The notes under the pieces were generated by a model. The model searched no databases, was not told where the DNA came from, and worked only from the letters and a program-made list of their open reading frames with translations. A program made the translations under genes and the position numbers. A DNA stretch of 33,297 nt from a virus, in the IMG/VR virus record IMGVR_UViG_3300032285_000933, positions 1-33,297 of that record; one strand, 5' to 3'. Positions 25,092 through 33,297 of the stretch are shown piece after piece; the stretch's first letter is position 1; each line of letters opens with the position of its first letter.

Positions 25092-25430
25092 ATGGGATAT
25101 CCCAAAATGGAAAAAATGCCAATGGGCGTTAAATCATCCGATCGCACCGGCGAAAAGAAAGTTAGCGTGCCAAAAGAGGACAAAGAAAAATTTGTCCCCG
25201 GCGTGTCAGGCGAAAAAATCCCCAAGGGCGCATTGTCTAGCGATACATCGGGCGAACGCCGCAGACCGATCGAGGGCGGCGTGGGCATGGGCAAGATGGA
25301 TGGCATTGGCGGCCGTGAATCAAGCCACATGGGCAAATATGATGGCCGTTTGGGCGAAATGAAAGGTGGATCATCCGAGGCCACTTGTTATGAGCACAAG
25401 CGGATGGATCACATTCAAGATTCAATGTAA
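25092..25430 (+). CDS. Lys/Gly/Met-rich protein of unknown function
   Basis: 112 residues from ATG 25092 behind aaaggaatc. Low-complexity and hydrophilic, with repeated Ser-Asp/Thr-Gly-Glu motifs (SSDRTGEKK, SSDTSGERR, VSGEK). A C-terminal LGEMKGGSSEATCYEHKRMD follows. No domain is recognised. It is the first gene after the putative middle promoter and is followed by a GC-rich hairpin. It could be an abundant structural or DNA-binding protein, but this is uncertain. Confidence 0.65.
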   Translation: MGYPKMEKMPMGVKSSDRTGEKKVSVPKEDKEKFVPGVSGEKIPKGALSSDTSGERRRPIEGGVGMGKMDGIGGRESSHMGKYDGRLGEMKGGSSEATCYEHKRMDHIQDSM

Positions 25431-25496: not shown

Positions 25497-25748
25497 ATGG
25501 CTGATGACAATTGTAAGGTATGCCGGTTTTATATTGGCCATGATTTAGGATCGTGCCGCCGATATCCCGATTACAAAACCCGTTCACAAAATGAATGGTG
25601 TGGTGAATTTGCGAAGAAACTCTCGGAGGGTGAAGCAGTTGCCGAGATTTTGCCCGAGGCTAACGCCTTGGGCGTTTTTTCCGCATTGGGCATGAATGAA
25701 CCAAAGATGCCGGCACCCAAGCGCGGGAGGCCACGGAAAAATGATTAA
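25497..25748 (+). CDS. Cys-cluster protein with C-terminal AT-hook
   Basis: 83 residues. The N-terminal half has CKVCRFYIGHDLGSCRRYP and EWCGEF: four Cys in a spacing that could bind zinc. The C-terminus PKRGRPRKND contains the core GRP of an AT-hook, which binds the minor groove of AT-rich DNA. It may therefore be a small transcription or nucleoid factor acting on late genes. The stop overlaps the GroES-like start by 8 nt. The DNA-binding role is inferred from motifs. Confidence 0.7.
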   Translation: MADDNCKVCRFYIGHDLGSCRRYPDYKTRSQNEWCGEFAKKLSEGEAVAEILPEANALGVFSALGMNEPKMPAPKRGRPRKND

Positions 25749-26016
25749 GCCACTAAGAGATAAGATATTTGTAAAGCCAATCCAACGAATCCAAAGCGAT
25801 TTGTGGATACAAACGGCCGAGGCACCCACGGTTGGGCACATAACGGCGTTAGGCGATGATGCGGTCGATCAAGGGCTAAGTGTTGGGGATAAGGTTTATT
25901 TCGGCACATTAGCCAAAGATTACAAAGACGAATATCTTAAATATCAGGAATTAAAAGACGAAAATCTAATCGTTATGTCATGGCAAGATGTATGTTTTGT
26001 GGAGGAAATGGAATGA
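25741..26016 (+). CDS. GroES-like co-chaperonin (Cpn10)
   Basis: 91 residues from ATG 25741; an upstream frame extension to 25696 is inside the previous gene. MIKPLRDKIFVKPI matches the start of GroES. GHITALGDDAV and LSVGDKVYFG match the central barrel, and NLIVMSWQDVCFVE matches the C-terminal strand. The mobile loop region (RIQSDLWIQTAEA) is about five residues shorter than in GroES, with LWI in place of IVL. T4 gp31 and related phage co-chaperonins alter host GroEL to fold the coat protein. Here it may do the same for the coat encoded 6 kb downstream. No GroEL gene is present. Confidence 0.8.
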   Translation: MIKPLRDKIFVKPIQRIQSDLWIQTAEAPTVGHITALGDDAVDQGLSVGDKVYFGTLAKDYKDEYLKYQELKDENLIVMSWQDVCFVEEME

Positions 26017-26171
26017 AAACAGGTTTGTACGCCAACATTCATGCTAAACAGGAACGGATCAAGCGGGAAAAAGCCGCGGGTGAGCCGGTTGAAAAGATGC
26101 GCAAGCCCGGCACCAAGGGCGCACCAACCGCCGCCGCATTTAAACAATCCGCAAAGACGGCCAAAAAATGA
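26013..26171 (+). CDS. Small basic conserved phage protein
   Basis: 52 residues from ATG 26013, which overlaps the GroES-like stop (ATGA). MKTGLYANIHAKQERIKREK, then KMRKPGTKGAPTAAAF and KQSAKTAKK. This short Lys-rich protein, with the KPGTKGAPTA motif, recurs next to terminase genes in many podoviruses and siphoviruses. Possibly a minor virion or DNA-condensing protein; the actual role is unknown. Confidence 0.75.
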   Translation: MKTGLYANIHAKQERIKREKAAGEPVEKMRKPGTKGAPTAAAFKQSAKTAKK

Positions 26172-26440
26172 AAGCACACGATAAACCAATCCCACATAAG
26201 ACAACGGGCAAGGGCAAAACCTACAACCCAACAGAATCAGGCGCGGGAATGACGGCCAAGGGGCGTGCGGAATACAATGCCAAAAACGGATCAAACCTAA
26301 AGGCACCGGCACCCAACCCAAAGACTGAAAAGGATAAAGGCCGCAAAGCATCATTTTGTGCCCGCATGGAGGGTGTGGTTAAAAACGCCAAAGGCCCCGC
26401 CGAAAGGGCGAAAGCATCATTAAAGAATTGGAATTGTTAA
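26168..26440 (+). CDS. Basic conserved phage protein (DUF6321-like)
   Basis: 90 residues starting at an ATGA overlap. A basic Gly/Lys-rich front (HKTTGKGKTYNPTESGAGMT, KGRAEYNAKNGSNLK) leads to GRKASFCARMEGVV and a C-terminal ASLKNWNC. The ending with a terminal Cys resembles a phage family recorded as a domain of unknown function. It lies just upstream of the packaging genes. A virion role is plausible but unproven. Confidence 0.75.
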   Translation: MKAHDKPIPHKTTGKGKTYNPTESGAGMTAKGRAEYNAKNGSNLKAPAPNPKTEKDKGRKASFCARMEGVVKNAKGPAERAKASLKNWNC

Positions 26441-26659: not shown

Positions 26660-26792
26660 ATCAATCAAACCACAAGCATTCAAAAAAAACATTGAGGCAG
26701 AGATCAAGGCTGGCAAGCCAATCAAACAGGCGGTGGCCATAGCCTATTCGGAAAAACGCGAGGCCGCCAAAGCAAAGGCGAAAAAGAAATGA
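26646..26792 (+). CDS. Very small basic phage protein
   Basis: 48 residues beginning MPLIKSIKPQAFKKNIEAEI, with AGKPIKQAVAIAYSEKREAA and a poly-Lys/Ala tail. The pattern P-x-K-Q-A-V-A-I-A-x-S is familiar from short phage proteins upstream of terminases. It overlaps both neighbours (14 nt upstream, 4 nt with the small terminase). Possibly DNA-binding because of its charge; function unknown. Confidence 0.7.
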   Translation: MPLIKSIKPQAFKKNIEAEIKAGKPIKQAVAIAYSEKREAAKAKAKKK

Positions 26793-27181
26793 CGGCCGGC
26801 CGCCCAACGCTATATGATCCCGCCTATTGCGATAGGGTGTTGGAATTGGGCGCATTGGGCAAAAGTGTAGAACAAATTTCTACACATTTAGGTGTTTCGT
26901 TAAGAACAATGTATACATGGCGCGATGCACATCCGGAATTTTTGCACGCCTTGGAAGAAGCCAAGGTAGCGGAACAAACGTGGTGGGAAGAACAGGCACA
27001 GGCATATATGCTAGAACACAAGGATGGGGCCAAGCTAAACGCAAGTATTTGGTCACGATCAATGGCCGCACGCTTTCCAAAGAAATATCGTGAATCGGTT
27101 AAACAAGAAATCACCGGTGAAAATGGCGCACCATTGCTAACAAACATTGCGGTGACGTTTGTAAGCCCAAATGGAAGCTAA
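26789..27181 (+). CDS. terS: Terminase small subunit
   Basis: 130 residues. The N-terminal part (MTAGRPTLYDPAYCDRVLEL, then KSVEQISTHLGVSLRTMYTW) is a helix-turn-helix as in phage DNA-packaging small subunits. The following AHPEFLHALEEAKVAEQTWW helix probably drives ring formation. The C-terminus (KQEITGENGAPL) is the usual flexible tail contacting the large subunit. It recognises the packaging site on phage DNA. It overlaps the large-subunit start by 11 nt. Confidence 0.85.
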   Translation: MTAGRPTLYDPAYCDRVLELGALGKSVEQISTHLGVSLRTMYTWRDAHPEFLHALEEAKVAEQTWWEEQAQAYMLEHKDGAKLNASIWSRSMAARFPKKYRESVKQEITGENGAPLLTNIAVTFVSPNGS

Positions 27182-28427
27182 TATTGAATTCCCGCTAAAA
27201 CTACAATGCCTATTCCAATCGGCGCGTTATAAAGTGCTTTGGGGAGGGCGAGGCGGGGCTAAATCGTGGGGTATTGCCCGCGCCCTATTGATCATTGGTG
27301 CCAACAAGGCCACACGCGTGTTATGCGCACGGGAATTCCAAACATCCATTAGGGATTCCGTTCACAAGCTACTTTGCGATCAAATCGGCGCAATGGGCCT
27401 AACGGATTTCTATGAAATCACCGATCGAACAATCCGCGGCAAGAATGGATCGGAATTTAATTTTGTTGGCCTAAAAAATAATGTGGCCAATGTGAAAAGC
27501 TATGAGGGCGTGGATATTTGTTGGGTCGAGGAGGCGCAATCGGTTAGCGGCCGATCATGGGCCACATTGATCCCAACGATACGAAAAGAACAATCCGAAA
27601 TATGGGTTTCATTCAATCCGGAATTGGAAAGTGATGAAACTTACCAACGATTCGTGTTGCACCCGCCGGAAAATGCTATTGTGCAAAAGATCAATTGGTC
27701 TGATAACCCTTGGTTTCCGGATGTATTGCGACAAGAAAAGGATGCGCTAAAGAATCGTGATCCGGAGGCTTACAACATGGTTTGGGAGGGGATTTGCCGC
27801 CAAACCGTGGATGGTGCCATCTTTGCCAAGGAAATCCAATTGGCGGATTTGGAGGAAAGAATTGGCAAGGTGCCATACGATGCAACCAAACCCGTTCACG
27901 TTGTCTTTGACCTTGGATGGGCGGATGCCACGGCATTGTGGTTTGTGCAATTCATTGGAATGGAAACGCGCCTAATCCGCTATTTTGAAACATCACAGGA
28001 AACAATTAGCGCCATATTGGCCAAAATGCAAACGTTTGGCTATGTGTTTGACACACTATGGTTGCCACATGATGCGGAAAATAAGACTTTGGCGGCCGCG
28101 GGGCGATCAATTGAGGAAATAGTGCGGGCGGCGGGGTATAAGACGCGGATTATTCCACGCACGCCAATTGTGGATTCAATCAACGCGGCACGCACAATTT
28201 TTAGAAATTGTTGGTTTGATAGAATAAATTGCGATGATGGGCTACAATGCCTTAGACACTATCGTTATGAGGTTGATCCGGATACAAAACAGTTTAGCCG
28301 CACGCCCTTGCATGATCAGTATTCGCACGGTGCGGATGCGTTTAGAATGTTGGGGTTGATGATCCAAGAGCCGAAGAAATTGGTAGTGAAAAAACCCGTT
28401 TATGAACCCGCAAATTGGATGGGATGA
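27171..28427 (+). CDS. terL: Terminase large subunit, PBSX/Terminase_3-like
   Basis: 418 residues. The ATPase domain has the Walker A-type loop LWGGRGGAKSWG (residues 23-34) and Walker B DICWVEEAQ. An adenine-binding/coupling region follows, with WVSFNPE. The RNaseH-like nuclease part has VVFDLGWADATALW, WLPHDAENKTL and SHGADAFRMLG, whose acidic residues would hold two metals. The enzyme translocates DNA into the procapsid through the portal and cuts it. The stop lies 2 bp before the preferred portal start. Confidence 0.93.
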   Translation: MEANIEFPLKLQCLFQSARYKVLWGGRGGAKSWGIARALLIIGANKATRVLCAREFQTSIRDSVHKLLCDQIGAMGLTDFYEITDRTIRGKNGSEFNFVGLKNNVANVKSYEGVDICWVEEAQSVSGRSWATLIPTIRKEQSEIWVSFNPELESDETYQRFVLHPPENAIVQKINWSDNPWFPDVLRQEKDALKNRDPEAYNMVWEGICRQTVDGAIFAKEIQLADLEERIGKVPYDATKPVHVVFDLGWADATALWFVQFIGMETRLIRYFETSQETISAILAKMQTFGYVFDTLWLPHDAENKTLAAAGRSIEEIVRAAGYKTRIIPRTPIVDSINAARTIFRNCWFDRINCDDGLQCLRHYRYEVDPDTKQFSRTPLHDQYSHGADAFRMLGLMIQEPKKLVVKKPVYEPANWMG

Positions 28428-28429
28428 AT

Positions 28430-30529
28430 ATGGCCGATAACCAAACAGATTTCGATCCACGGATTGATGAGGCAAAGAAATTTTTAAAGCTAGCCAACGA
28501 TGCGGATACGAATAATCGCACCGAGGCGTTGGAGGATTTGAAATTTGCCGCCGGTGATCAATGGCCGGTTGAAATCCAAAATAGCCGATCATTGGAGGCG
28601 CGGCCATGCCTAACAATCAACAAAATTGACGCGTATGTGCGCCAAGTAACCAACCAACAAAGACAACAACGCCCGCGGATCAAAGTCCATGGCATGAATA
28701 GTTCCTCCGATGAAAAGATTGCGGATATCCTAACGGGCATTTGCCGCCACATTGAAACGCAAAGCGATGCCGATCACGCATACGACAACGCGTTTAATTA
28801 CGCCGTGCGCATGGGTTTTGGCTATTGGCGCATAGAAACCGATTATGTGCGGGAAAATTCCTTTGATCAGGAAATCTACATTAAGCCAATACACAACCCG
28901 TTTACCGTTTATTTTGATCCGAATAGCACATTGCCGGATGGATCGGATGCGGAAAAGTGCCTAATTACGCAAGTTGTAAGTAAAGAGGTATTCCGCAAGA
29001 TGTATCCCGGCCACGATGATGGTGCCGGCTTTACACAACGCGGCACCGGCGATAGCAACGCGGAATGGGTGATGCGCGAGGATATCCGGATTGCGGAATT
29101 TTGGTATACGGAGCGCAAGGCAGATAAGCTATGCCTATTAAGCAATGGCGAAAAAGCATTTCGATCCGATTTGCCAGATCAGGCGGAAATGTTGGCCCGC
29201 GGCTTGGTGGTGATCGAGGAAAGGCCATCATTCAAACGCGAGGTTAAGCAAATCATTTGCACGGGCATGGAAGTGCTTGAAGAAGGCAAATGGGCAAGCA
29301 AATACATTCCGATTATTCCGGTTTACGGTGAGGAATTCGTTGTTGAAAACAAGCGCAAGAAATACGGCTTAGTGCGGATGGCCAAAGACCCGCAAAGGAT
29401 GTATAACTTTTGGAAAACCGCGCTAACCGAATCCGTTGCCCTAGCGCCTAAAGCCAAGTGGTTGATTGCCGAGGGACAAGATGAGGGGCACGAAAACGAA
29501 TGGGCACAGGCTAACATCAAATCCATGCCGGTGTTGCGTTATAAGCAAAAGGATATTGAGGGCGTGATGGCCCCAACACCCACGCGGATTCAACCGGAGG
29601 CACCGCCCGCGGGCATTATGGCCGCCGCGGATGGAATCAATAGCGATATGCAAGCGGTTTTGGGCATCTTTGATCCAAATCAAATGCCAAGCGGAAACAT
29701 AAGCGGCAAGGCACTAAATGGCCAACAACAACAAATTGATCTAAGTAATTACCATTATTACGACAATCTTACGCGATCCATTAAACACACCGCCCGCATT
29801 ATTCTTGATTTAATCCCCAAAATCTACGATAACGCCCGCATTATGCGAATCATTGGCGATGATGGAAAGCCGGAATTGGTGGAAATTAACAAGCGTGGCC
29901 AAGACGAACAGGGCGTTGAAAAGATACTAAACGATGTCACCGTGGGCGAATACGATGTTGTGATGGATACGGGCCCCGGTTACAACAGTAAACGCATTGA
30001 GGCGGTGCAATCCATGATGCCATTGCTGAGTGCCGATCCTAACCTAATGAATGTTGCCGGTGATTTGATCTTTAGAAACATGGATTTCCCCGGTGCGGAT
30101 GTCATTGCGGATCGTTTGGCCGCTAGCAACCCATTGGCGCAAATTGATGATAAATCACCCGTGCCGCCACAAGTGCAAATGCAATTGAAACAAAGCCAAC
30201 AGACAATTCAGCAATTACAACAACAGTTGCAAGGAATGCAATTGATGCTGAAAAACCGTGCGGATGTGGAACAAATGAAACAAGATGCGGAAACCAAGCG
30301 CACCTTGATCAAAGAAACCAACAAAGCCCACGAAATTGAATTGCAAGATCAACAAAGGCACATTGACATGAAAATGCGCACGGATACACAGGCGCACGAC
30401 ACGATTGTTAAGACACAAACGCAATTAGAGGTGGAGCAAATTAAAGCCCAATTGGCGGTGTATTTAAGCCATTTGGATCGAATTAGCGAACGCGAGGCAA
30501 AAGCCGAGGCGGTTGAAAGGGCAATTTGA
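28430..30529 (+). CDS. Portal protein, P22 gp1-like
   Basis: 699 residues from ATG 28430, preferred because ggatggg lies 6 bp upstream; ATG 28424 and TTG 28415 are also in frame. The family core is seen in VRQVTNQQRQQRPRIKVHG, FNYAVRMGFGYWRIETDY and IHNPFTVYFDPNS, with later MPSGNISGKALNGQQQQID. P22 portal is 725 residues, so the length fits. Residues beyond about 580 form a long Gln/Lys-rich helix, comparable to the P22 portal barrel. Twelve copies form the DNA gate and platform for the gp4-like adaptor. Confidence 0.9.
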   Translation: MADNQTDFDPRIDEAKKFLKLANDADTNNRTEALEDLKFAAGDQWPVEIQNSRSLEARPCLTINKIDAYVRQVTNQQRQQRPRIKVHGMNSSSDEKIADILTGICRHIETQSDADHAYDNAFNYAVRMGFGYWRIETDYVRENSFDQEIYIKPIHNPFTVYFDPNSTLPDGSDAEKCLITQVVSKEVFRKMYPGHDDGAGFTQRGTGDSNAEWVMREDIRIAEFWYTERKADKLCLLSNGEKAFRSDLPDQAEMLARGLVVIEERPSFKREVKQIICTGMEVLEEGKWASKYIPIIPVYGEEFVVENKRKKYGLVRMAKDPQRMYNFWKTALTESVALAPKAKWLIAEGQDEGHENEWAQANIKSMPVLRYKQKDIEGVMAPTPTRIQPEAPPAGIMAAADGINSDMQAVLGIFDPNQMPSGNISGKALNGQQQQIDLSNYHYYDNLTRSIKHTARIILDLIPKIYDNARIMRIIGDDGKPELVEINKRGQDEQGVEKILNDVTVGEYDVVMDTGPGYNSKRIEAVQSMMPLLSADPNLMNVAGDLIFRNMDFPGADVIADRLAASNPLAQIDDKSPVPPQVQMQLKQSQQTIQQLQQQLQGMQLMLKNRADVEQMKQDAETKRTLIKETNKAHEIELQDQQRHIDMKMRTDTQAHDTIVKTQTQLEVEQIKAQLAVYLSHLDRISEREAKAEAVERAI

Positions 30530-30605: not shown

Positions 30606-31496
30606 ATGTCGGAAAAAGAAGCGGGCCAAGTGCTCACAAGCGAGAATGCGGCGGAATTTTATGCAAATCGTTTAGGTTTAGCTGATCGTGCGGATGATGT
30701 GGCGGTTGAGGAAACTCCCGAGCCATCGCCCGAGGCGGCCAAGAATGAACCGGCGGAGCAAGAGGATGCCAAACCCGCAGAGGAAAAGAAGGCTAACCCA
30801 AAGTTAGAAAAAAGATTTTCCGAATTGACAAAACAACGCGAGGCGGCGAAGGCGGAGGCGGAAGCGGAACGCCAACAAAGGCAAGCGTTGGAGGAAAGGT
30901 TAAGGTCATTTGAACAACAGGCGGCACCACAAAGGCCGAGCGTTGATCAGGAGCCGCAACCGGGGCAGTTTACGGATGCGTTTGAATATGCAAAGGCATT
31001 GGCCCAATATTCAACAGAAACGGCACTAGCGCAACGGGATAGACAAGAGGCGGAGAAAATTGCTAATGCGGAAAGACAAAAGGTTATCCAATCTTGGTCA
31101 TCCAAATTAGAAAAAGCCAAAGCCGATTTGCCCGATTACGATGAGATGGTTTCAACGGCGAATGTGGTTGTTTCCGATGATATCCGCGATTCCATTTTGG
31201 AATCTGATGTGGGGCCACGAATCCTATATCACTTGGCGGAGGATTTGGAATTTGCACAAAAGCTAGCGGCCATGCCAACCCGTAAAGCCTTGCTTGAATT
31301 GGGAAAATTGGAAAAGCTATACGAAAAGGCCGAGCCGGCTAAGGATACTGCGGTCAAGACAAGTAAAGCACCCGCACCGGTGCGCGGATTGAAACCAAGT
31401 GGTGGTGTTGCGGATATTCCCATTAATTCTAGTGGCGAATTTCACGGAACATATCAGGCGTGGAAAGAGGCAAGACGGGCGGGAAAAATTCGATAA
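30606..31496 (+). CDS. Capsid scaffolding protein
   Basis: 296 residues, highly charged. An acidic N-terminal part (VEETPEPSPEAAKNEPAEQE) leads to a long Ala/Glu/Lys/Arg coiled coil (AEAEAERQQRQALEERLRSF onward). More helices follow, and the C-terminus is basic (YQAWKEARRAGKIR). P22 gp8 is 303 residues with the same organisation and a basic C-terminal coat-binding helix. Its position between portal and coat is the usual one. It directs assembly of the procapsid and then leaves. No protease domain is seen. Confidence 0.88.
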   Translation: MSEKEAGQVLTSENAAEFYANRLGLADRADDVAVEETPEPSPEAAKNEPAEQEDAKPAEEKKANPKLEKRFSELTKQREAAKAEAEAERQQRQALEERLRSFEQQAAPQRPSVDQEPQPGQFTDAFEYAKALAQYSTETALAQRDRQEAEKIANAERQKVIQSWSSKLEKAKADLPDYDEMVSTANVVVSDDIRDSILESDVGPRILYHLAEDLEFAQKLAAMPTRKALLELGKLEKLYEKAEPAKDTAVKTSKAPAPVRGLKPSGGVADIPINSSGEFHGTYQAWKEARRAGKIR

Positions 31497-31530: not shown

Positions 31531-32775
31531 ATGAGCAATAATTTATTGACTATTTCAAAAATCACCAATGAGGCTCTCATGGTGCTCGAAAACGAATTGA
31601 CTTTCACATCGGAAGTCGACCGCAACTACGACGACCAGTTCGCAGTTGTCGGCGCGAAAATTGGTAATACCGTCAATGTGAGACGTCCCGGACGCTTCAT
31701 CGGTACGATGGGCCCCGCGCTAAACGTTGAGGACTTCAACGAATCAAGCGTACCCGTGACCTTGGCAAATCAGTTCCACGTCGACACTCAGTTCACAACC
31801 CAGGATTTGGCGCTATCCCTTGATATGTTCAGTGACCGGGTTTTGAAACCCGCGGTCGCCGCCATAGCCAATCGTATAGACCGTGATGGCTTGGTGATGG
31901 CAAAAAACAATACCGCAAATATTGTTGGCGTTGCCGGCACACCACCCACAGGTTTGATCACATATCTAACCGCTGGCGCATATCTAGATGCCGAGGGCGC
32001 ACCACGCGATGGCCGCCGTGCTTGTATTGTGGAACCATTCACATCGGCAACAATCGTTGATTCACTCAAAGGATTGTTTGTTCCCCAGGAGGCCATTGGC
32101 GAGCAATATCGCAAAGGTTTGATGGGCAGAGATTCCGCCGGGATGAATTGGAAACTTGATCAAAACGTGGTCTCACAAACGTTTGGAAATAGCCCCACGG
32201 CCGTTTTATCGTGCAATACAAGCACCGCAACGGGATTTTTGACATCAGGATGGGCACAGTTTTCAACAATCGCCCTAAGCGCCACTACGGCCGCCGGCAA
32301 CCTAAACGTTGGTGATGTAATTCAGATTGCAAACGTCTACGCCGTCAACCCACAAAACCGCCAAGCCTACGGTTCCAACAAGTTGAGAAACTTTGTTGTT
32401 ACTGCGGCCGCAACGGTTGCCACAAGCGGCACCACTAGCGTGACAGTTAGCCCCGCTATCATCACCGCCGGCCAATTCCAAAACGTTAGCGTGACAAGCC
32501 CCGGTGCATCGGCCGTCACACCGTTTAACAATTCCGGCACCGTTTCTCCACAAAACATGATCTTCCATAGGAACGCCTTCTGCTTGGCGGTGGCCGATCT
32601 CGAATTGCCTGAGGGAGTGCATTTTGCGGGCCGTGCAAGCGATAAGGAAATTGGACTTTCAATGCGTGTGGTACGTCAGTACACCATCAACAATGATTCA
32701 ATTCCAACCCGCTTGGATGTGTTGTATGGGTGGGCACCGTTGTATCCCGAATTGGCTTGTCGCGTTGCGGCTTAA
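31531..32775 (+). CDS. Major capsid protein, P22 gp5-like
   Basis: 414 residues (P22 coat is 430). N-terminal ITNEALMVLENELTFTSEVD, then FAVVGAKIGNTVNVRRPGRF and LANQFHVDTQFTTQDLALSL are recognisable from the P22 coat family with HK97 fold. An internal Thr/Ala-rich part (about 225-325) corresponds to the inserted domain region. The C-terminal MRVVRQYTINNDSIPTRLDV with LYGWAPLYPELACRV closes the fold. A strong ribosome site (aagaaaggga) fits high expression. The first ~110 codons use C-ending codons far more than the rest. Confidence 0.92.
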   Translation: MSNNLLTISKITNEALMVLENELTFTSEVDRNYDDQFAVVGAKIGNTVNVRRPGRFIGTMGPALNVEDFNESSVPVTLANQFHVDTQFTTQDLALSLDMFSDRVLKPAVAAIANRIDRDGLVMAKNNTANIVGVAGTPPTGLITYLTAGAYLDAEGAPRDGRRACIVEPFTSATIVDSLKGLFVPQEAIGEQYRKGLMGRDSAGMNWKLDQNVVSQTFGNSPTAVLSCNTSTATGFLTSGWAQFSTIALSATTAAGNLNVGDVIQIANVYAVNPQNRQAYGSNKLRNFVVTAAATVATSGTTSVTVSPAIITAGQFQNVSVTSPGASAVTPFNNSGTVSPQNMIFHRNAFCLAVADLELPEGVHFAGRASDKEIGLSMRVVRQYTINNDSIPTRLDVLYGWAPLYPELACRVAA

Positions 32776-32799: not shown

Positions 32800-33240
32800 A
32801 TGGCAAATCCCGGACCAGCAACCACAGTAAGCAATCACCCACAAAACTTGGCCACAAACCAAGCATTGCGTTTGATTGCATCCGCACAATCCGTTAACTT
32901 GGCCATTGCGGGTGATACCCCAATGACAGTTTTGGATGTATCTAAATTTGTGCCTACCAAGGTTATCATCACCAATGGCCTAAACGCTAGCGGTGCAACA
33001 ACCACAATTGCAACGGCAACGGTTGGCGCGTATACAGGCCAAAGCGCATCAGGCTCAACCATTTTGACTACCGCGGCTTTAACTAGCAACACCGGTGGCC
33101 CTTATGTTACGCTTACAGATGCAACAAACCTCAACACCGCTATTTCTAACCCAACAAACATTTATGTTAATGTTGGTACTACGATTGCCGCGACTTGTGA
33201 TGTGTTTGTCTACGGCTATGACCTCACCTTTTTACCCTAA
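32800..33240 (+). CDS. Possible capsid decoration or head-fibre protein
   Basis: 146 residues, neutral and Thr/Ala/Asn-rich. The front is helical (NHPQNLATNQALRLIASAQS) and the rest is beta-rich (LDVSKFVPTKVIITNGLNAS, then TIAATCDVFVYGYDLTFLP). It follows the coat gene by 24 bp with an aggag ribosome site and is followed by a terminator, so it shares the coat transcript. That is the usual place of a decoration or head-stabilising protein. The assignment is by context only. Its 3' end lies in the terminal repeat. Confidence 0.75.
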   Translation: MANPGPATTVSNHPQNLATNQALRLIASAQSVNLAIAGDTPMTVLDVSKFVPTKVIITNGLNASGATTTIATATVGAYTGQSASGSTILTTAALTSNTGGPYVTLTDATNLNTAISNPTNIYVNVGTTIAATCDVFVYGYDLTFLP

Positions 33241-33297
33241 TTCGTGAGTGAATAAAGAAAAGCCGCCTACAAAATGGGTGGCTTTTTTTCGTTTTGA
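33175..33297. repeat. Terminal direct repeat, right copy
   Basis: Exact copy of bases 1-123. The right copy is the natural context, because here the decoration-type gene is complete and is followed by its terminator. Closing the circle at this repeat places the tail-fibre genes directly downstream of the capsid genes. Confidence 0.95.
33261..33289 (+). terminator. Rho-independent terminator (right repeat copy)
   Basis: Second copy of the terminator at 87-115, inside the terminal repeat. It has the same stem, loop and T run, directly downstream of the complete gene at 32800-33240. Confidence 0.85.

Follow-up and report, generated by a model that had tools for sequence, protein, structure and literature searches.

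A phage co-chaperonin of the GroES type with a short mobile loop and a shortened roof, encoded upstream of P22-type head genes

The co-chaperonin locus and its neighbouring genes

The window, by which we mean the whole 33,297-nucleotide stretch of DNA that was analysed (IMG/VR record IMGVR_UViG_3300032285_000933, positions 1 to 33,297), begins and ends with the same 123 bases (1-123 = 33175-33297). Because the ends share these 123 bp, we regard the record as a complete genome read round once, and the head genes run from the end of the record into its start. The features of interest are collected in Table 1. The co-chaperonin (lid) gene lies approximately 5.5 kb upstream of the coat gene. The genome also holds spanin, endolysin, RusA, Erf and YqaJ-type genes, and no tRNA genes were found in it. 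None of the genes of this complete genome matches Cpn60/GroEL, which rules out a GroEL partner encoded by the phage itself; the lid, if functional, must therefore use the GroEL of the host.

Table 1. Positions of the co-chaperonin gene, its sub-features and the surrounding genes in the window
Feature	Position	Strand	Basis
112-aa gene, no assigned function, conserved neighbour	25092..25430	+	
83-aa Cys-rich gene, basic tail KRGRPRK, 8-nt overlap with the co-chaperonin start	25497..25748	+	
Cpn10/GroES-type co-chaperonin gene, 91 aa, 10.5 kDa	25741..26016	+	Pfam, PHROG, PDB and structure matches
Short mobile loop, residues 13-31, 19 aa vs 24 in cellular GroES	25777..25833	+	Alignment
Loop apex tripeptide Leu21-Trp22-Ile23, at the place of GroES IVL	25801..25809	+	Sequence, alignment
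Shortened roof segment, residues 39-47, 9 aa vs 16	25855..25881	+	Alignment
Lengthened segment after FG, residues 55-78, with EYLKY motif	25903..25974	+	Alignment, pN/pS
DUF6321 protein, downstream neighbour of the lid	26168..26440	+	
Terminase small subunit	26789..27181	+	PHROG
Terminase large subunit (TerL)	27171..28427	+	PHROG
Portal protein	28415..30529	+	PHROG 156
Head scaffolding protein	30606..31496	+	PHROG
Major coat protein, 414 aa, 44.0 kDa, likely client	31531..32775	+	PHROG, Pfam P22_CoatProtein

The first-pass annotation had placed a phage-encoded GroES homologue with a shortened and altered GroEL-contacting loop at this locus. Its open reading frame was recovered with the same boundaries, 91 codons plus stop. 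The frame is readable from 25696 already, but the start at 25741 is supported by the relatives, which begin M-I/F-K-P or M-K-P, as well as by a GGGAGG at 25725-25730, 10 nt 5' of the ATG, and by the overlap with the end of the upstream gene. In hmmscan, the window protein passed the Pfam Cpn10 (PF00166) cut-off of 21.1 narrowly (21.5 bits, E 2.5e-4), whereas a six-frame Cpn10 family search of the window returned no candidate; three relatives scored 23.4 (L082), 39.0 (L103) and 35.1 bits (L101). The protein also matches PHROG 3188 (co-chaperonin GroES, E 4.2e-4) and, among PDB sequences, the Xanthomonas GroES 3nx6 (E 4e-5). At least 580 stretches in IMG/VR are related to the window co-chaperonin, 80 of which were analysed. 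Pooled over 48 distinct relatives, pN/pS is 0.19, with synonymous sites near saturation. A chance reading frame or a pseudogene is ruled out by the Pfam, PHROG and PDB matches, these relatives and the pN/pS value, and it is very likely that the phage encodes a GroES of its own.

The gene itself is not new, since phage GroES genes are well known and BFVD contains a protein 61% identical to ours that is named as a GroES chaperonin family member. The novelty lies in a structural variant of the known phage GroES, which combines a short loop, a missing roof and a conserved extra segment in one capsid lineage. Our literature searches, including one that combined P22-like, freshwater, phage and GroES, found no description of this short-loop family among the papers listed. 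GroES has been described as a core gene of HTVC023P-type pelagiphages (PMC9599517), a likeness by description only. Marine and colleagues reportedly treated virioplankton chaperonins in 2017, which we liken to the present case by topic only.

Directly upstream, the Cys-rich protein carries a CxxC and two further cysteines, and its Pfam matches, of the iron-sulphur kind, stay below threshold. A counterpart was matched upstream of the lid in 74 of 81 clade-A, 15 of 15 clade-B and 74 of 80 clade-C loci (clades defined below), and it overlaps the lid start by 4 or 8 nt in 74/74 clade-A loci where the reading frame was found. From this arrangement, the lid gene appears to be translationally coupled to the Cys-rich gene across clades A-C. 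As for the downstream neighbour, the best tblastn segment of the DUF6321 protein is >85% identical in those clade-A loci that have it, even where the lid is only ~72% identical.

A short loop, a shortened roof and a longer segment after FG

We aligned 178 distinct sequences from 244 loci, which fall into clade A (including the window), clades B and C, and a cellular-type group, with T4 gp31 in the same alignment. A clade-C seed has at least 319 related IMG/VR stretches, 80 of which were analysed. The relatives of another seed, L085, were used as comparators only, because this seed is an ordinary cellular GroES beside GroEL. For the tree we took 77 of the 178 rows, namely all 11 of clade B, the window and 20 random clade-A sequences, 25 random clade-C and 20 random cellular-type sequences, leaving out T4. 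In this tree, clades A-C cluster together and are separated from cellular GroES by a branch of 2.65 changes per column (support 100/100); the inner forks are rough owing to the few alignment columns. On average, clade-A sequences are 26% identical to those of the cellular-type group.

The loop was measured as the residues between K12 and G32. It comprises 19 residues in 48/48 distinct clade-A sequences and 20 residues in all distinct sequences of clades B (11/11) and C (62/62). Among the 56 distinct cellular-type sequences, 45 have 24 residues and the minimum is 23; when only the non-viral ones are considered, 33 of 34 have 24 residues and one has 23. The loop of gp31 counts 29. The estimate of a loop about five residues shorter had therefore been exact, and the apex had been read correctly as LWI replacing IVL. 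All 48 distinct clade-A sequences have L-[WY]-[IVL] at this place (LWI in 22, LYI in 17, LYV in 5 and LWL in 4). The apex of clade C is hydrophobic or aromatic in 62/62 distinct sequences (VLI, VII, III, IIY and similar). That of clade B, IID, IIE or VIE, is not fully hydrophobic, which counts against a function as a GroEL lid. As none of the 56 distinct cellular-type comparators has so short a loop, docking on a canonical GroEL is not assured. The entropic cost of binding should be smaller for a shorter loop, which could make the lid tighter or longer-lived.

The first-pass annotation had overlooked two further differences, a deletion in the roof and extra length in the segment after FG. Counted from G38 to V48, the roof of clade A measures 9 residues, that of clade B 8 or 16 and that of clade C 15-16, against 16 in 34/34 non-viral cellular-type sequences and 9 in gp31. 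The full-length roof hairpin typical of cellular GroES is thus absent from the window protein, although it does not define the family, as gp31 has no roof either. The roofless sequences form a single group in the tree (support 95/82), suggesting one loss of the roof. Between FG and the Met of the C-terminal strand, the window protein has 24 residues, 7 more than most cellular GroES. This segment measures 24-26 residues in clade A, 26 in clade C and 23 in clade B, with 26 in most relatives, 17 in 33 of the 34 non-viral cellular-type sequences and 29 in gp31. Of 121 phage sequences, 120 contain a motif E[YF]L[KNSR][YF], which none of the 56 cellular-type sequences has. In clade A, the lowest pN/pS falls on residues 48-67, which hold EYLKY (0.05 vs 0.19 overall, with pS near saturation); in clade C, it falls on the strand at 32-38. 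In the alignment, this additional stretch begins beside Tyr71 of E. coli GroES, and it may line or face the folding chamber. According to a review, Y71H belongs to a GroEL/S variant obtained by selection for improved GFP folding, for which the polarity of the chamber matters (PMC4791398).

The first-pass annotation had proposed structure prediction against GroES and gp31, and had described the start, barrel and C-terminal strand as following GroES. A first model, computed from an alignment of 23 hand-picked close relatives (A1), had a pLDDT of 66.7 with low confidence at residues 18-25 and was superseded by a second. The second model (pLDDT 77.9, pTM 0.68) was based on 44 rows (A2), the window and 43 of 51 listed broader relatives; MW202674 and seven long viral rows were left out. 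The first 30 rows of a Foldseek search with this model are all GroES/Cpn10 chains. In VIA-align, it superimposes on GroES 4pkn with Z 9.9 and an r.m.s.d. of 2.5 for 80 aligned residues and on gp31 1g31 with Z 7.7, both above the first non-Cpn10 protein (Z 6.9). The prediction hence gives the Cpn10 beta-barrel fold, and start, barrel and C-terminal strand are intact in the window protein, so that the description as a Cpn10/GroES homologue with an altered loop is borne out by profile, PDB and fold matches alike.

Compared with cellular GroES (E. coli, PDB 1aon, 4pkn; PF00166), the window protein shares the beta-barrel, the hydrophobic apex, the start and the C-terminal strand, but differs in its loop (19 instead of 24 residues), roof (9 instead of 16) and segment after FG (24-26 in its clade instead of 17). 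With T4 gp31 (PDB 1g31, 2cgt), it has in common that it is phage-encoded, lacks the roof (9 residues in both), has a long segment after FG and bears a hydrophobic loop apex, which in gp31 reads LII. The two differ in loop length and show 9% identity in the structural alignment, and their coats are of ~56 kDa and 44 kDa, respectively.

Synteny, P22-type phages and candidate hosts

The short-loop lid is common in freshwater viral contigs, in which it is closely followed by the genes for terminase, portal, scaffold and P22-type coat. We scored downstream genes in loci with sufficient room, i.e., at least 3 kb for TerL, 5 kb for the portal and 6.3 kb for the coat, bearing in mind that the counts are not independent, because the loci were found by lid similarity and include near-copies. 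TerL was present in 61/61 clade-A, 10/11 clade-B and 58/58 clade-C loci and in 0/27 cellular-type loci. The portal was found in 32/32, 10/10 and 37/37 loci, respectively, against 0/23. The coat was found in 1/1 clade-A and 8/8 clade-B loci and in 0/1 cellular-type locus, no clade-C locus being long enough; one cellular-type locus short of the 6.3-kb room has a coat match. One 67-kb contig, IMGVR_UViG_3300025723_000032 (L005, L024), carries two different clade-A lids with head genes ~33 kb apart; it may be a double prophage or the product of an assembly that fused two phage genomes.

The capsid had been described as P22-like, in agreement with the match of the coat to Pfam P22_CoatProtein over its whole length (E 1e-34). 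An own GroES had been called unusual for such phages, since P22-type phages normally use that of the host. Out of 54 phage records with a coat homologue, we tested 18, mostly one per distinct phage, plus P22. A Cpn10 gene was found in 4 of the 19 (MW202674, MW202520, PBR31 and DSL-LC05) and none in the other 15 (14 with a coat homologue, and P22). The statement holds for most tested records, but not for the freshwater lineage, in which the lid is common, nor for PBR31. Three of the four lid-bearing records, MW202674, MW202520 and PBR31, have the coats closest to that of the window.

MW202674 (podovirus ctn9Y15) and MW202520 (cta1H496) belong to clade B and combine a short loop with a short roof, as in the window. 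Their coats are 85% and 83% identical to the window coat, but their lids differ, with 44% identity to the window protein, a segment after FG of 23 residues and, in MW202674, the apex IID. The P22-type coat gene of MW202674 (L082, 16569-18084) is annotated in two pieces, and the matched span holds ~270 extra bases; an intron, an insertion or faulty assembly could account for them. In the cultured Xanthomonas phage PBR31 (MT119766), a GroES occupies the corresponding position, just ahead of the terminase, portal and scaffold genes and of a coat that shares 57.5% identity with that of the window. Unlike the window protein, this GroES has a long loop with SAGILV, an intact roof and no EYLKY motif. 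A word search found neither "GroES" nor "chaperonin" in the main text of the PBR31 paper (PMC10975493). DSL-LC05 (OR003940, L268) has an 83-aa Cpn10-like reading frame at 1501-1731 on the minus strand, in which most of the loop apex and the roof are absent in the alignment. The long loop and intact roof of the PBR31 GroES make an origin of the lid from an ordinary GroES plausible, and a plausible order of events would be shortening of the loop followed by loss of the roof.

A Burkholderiales MAG includes a 10.3-kb contig that carries one clade-A lid (L084). Among 399 Burkholderiales genomes searched, two had such phage contigs, this MAG and one more, which has two contigs encoding a lid with a short loop and a roof, together with portal, scaffold and a coat of 75% identity. 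These two contigs (L272 and L273) are 92% identical to each other, and the genome has five Cpn10 matches. Burkholderiales are candidate hosts only, as the phage contigs lie in their assemblies, a link that is weak because binning errors are possible. In E. coli, the IVL tripeptide of GroES touches L234, L237 and V264 of GroEL (PMC3514286). One GroEL in each of the two Burkholderiales genomes retains L234, L237, V264 and N265. One of these genomes also has a second GroEL, which carries V264I. An altered host GroEL as the cause of the short loop finds no support, the contact residues being unchanged in one GroEL per candidate-host genome.

A probable lid for the GroEL of the host

We consider it probable, at roughly two in three, that the protein is a lid of the GroES/Cpn10 kind, which would sit as a seven-fold ring on the host GroEL in place of the host GroES and cap a chamber folding head proteins. 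The computed features behind this reading are the Cpn10 homology and fold, the short and conserved loop with its hydrophobic apex, the missing roof, the constrained and lengthened segment after FG, purifying selection, the position by the head genes and the lack of a phage GroEL. The putative seven-fold ring would form, its hydrophobic LWI apexes would dock on two apical helices of the host GroEL, and the lid would displace the host GroES during infection. The capped chamber could then fold the head proteins of the phage, above all the P22-type coat as the presumed client. The 15 of 19 tested P22-type-coat records without a Cpn10 gene count against this explanation. GroEL clients are given as 20-60 kDa in size (PMC4791398). 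The 44-kDa coat should fit into a normal GroES-capped chamber, leaving the need for an own lid unexplained.

The first-pass annotation had pointed to T4 gp31, which adapts GroEL for a large coat protein. For gp31, a longer loop (22 vs 16 for GroES), an 8% larger chamber and no roof have been described, in the service of a ~56-kDa coat (PMC6318259). This analogy did not hold, as the loop here is shorter (19 vs 29 in our alignment) and the coat has only 44.0 kDa. Both speak against an enlarged chamber after the gp31 model, and chamber size is not a likely reason for the lid. The resemblance to gp31 lies in the missing roof instead.

The loop and apex, which depart from cellular GroES in every distinct relative, and the constraint on the loop and the segment after FG would also suit a protein that binds GroEL mainly as an inhibitor or diverter, slowing the cycle for host clients and thereby favouring phage proteins or blunting host functions. 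We regard this as unlikely, because in each of the three clades the gene directly precedes those for packaging and the head, which fits head assembly better than an early take-over, and because the barrel and the C-terminal strand are intact.

It is comparably improbable that a protein of Cpn10 fold no longer uses GroEL and has its loop repurposed for head assembly or for the Cys-rich partner. The short loop and missing roof, the strongest clade-A constraint at residues 48-67 instead of the loop, and the constant coupling to the Cys-rich gene in clade A all agree with such a role. Yet clades A and C keep hydrophobic or aromatic residues where GroES has its loop apex, clade C is near GroES there (VLI, VII, III), and the GroES encoded at the corresponding locus of the Xanthomonas phage has SAGILV in its loop.

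Although phages do carry host-like GroES genes, an ordinary host-derived copy with no special role is highly improbable, being contradicted by the tree, by the low identity between clade A and cellular-type sequences and by the EYLKY-type motif confined to the phage sequences.

Within the reading as a GroEL lid, a further proposal, which we hold to be possible but doubtful, is a distinct class of co-chaperonins for one capsid lineage. The compact loop would hold the lid close to a canonical host GroEL, the open roof would let a portion of the chain or the extra domain of the coat protrude, and the EYLKY segment would line the chamber and recognise the P22-type coat or tune the chamber for it, possibly with the co-translated Cys-rich protein as its dedicated partner.

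GroES lids are usually viewed as generic. A short-loop family with a conserved additional segment beside one capsid gene set offers a natural experiment on which parts of a lid set GroEL affinity and the choice of clients, and it bears on the question of what leads certain P22-type phages to encode a lid that P22 itself lacks. The main model of phage lids has so far been gp31, whereas the short-loop family, which is widespread and lacks the roof only in part, alters the loop in the opposite direction.
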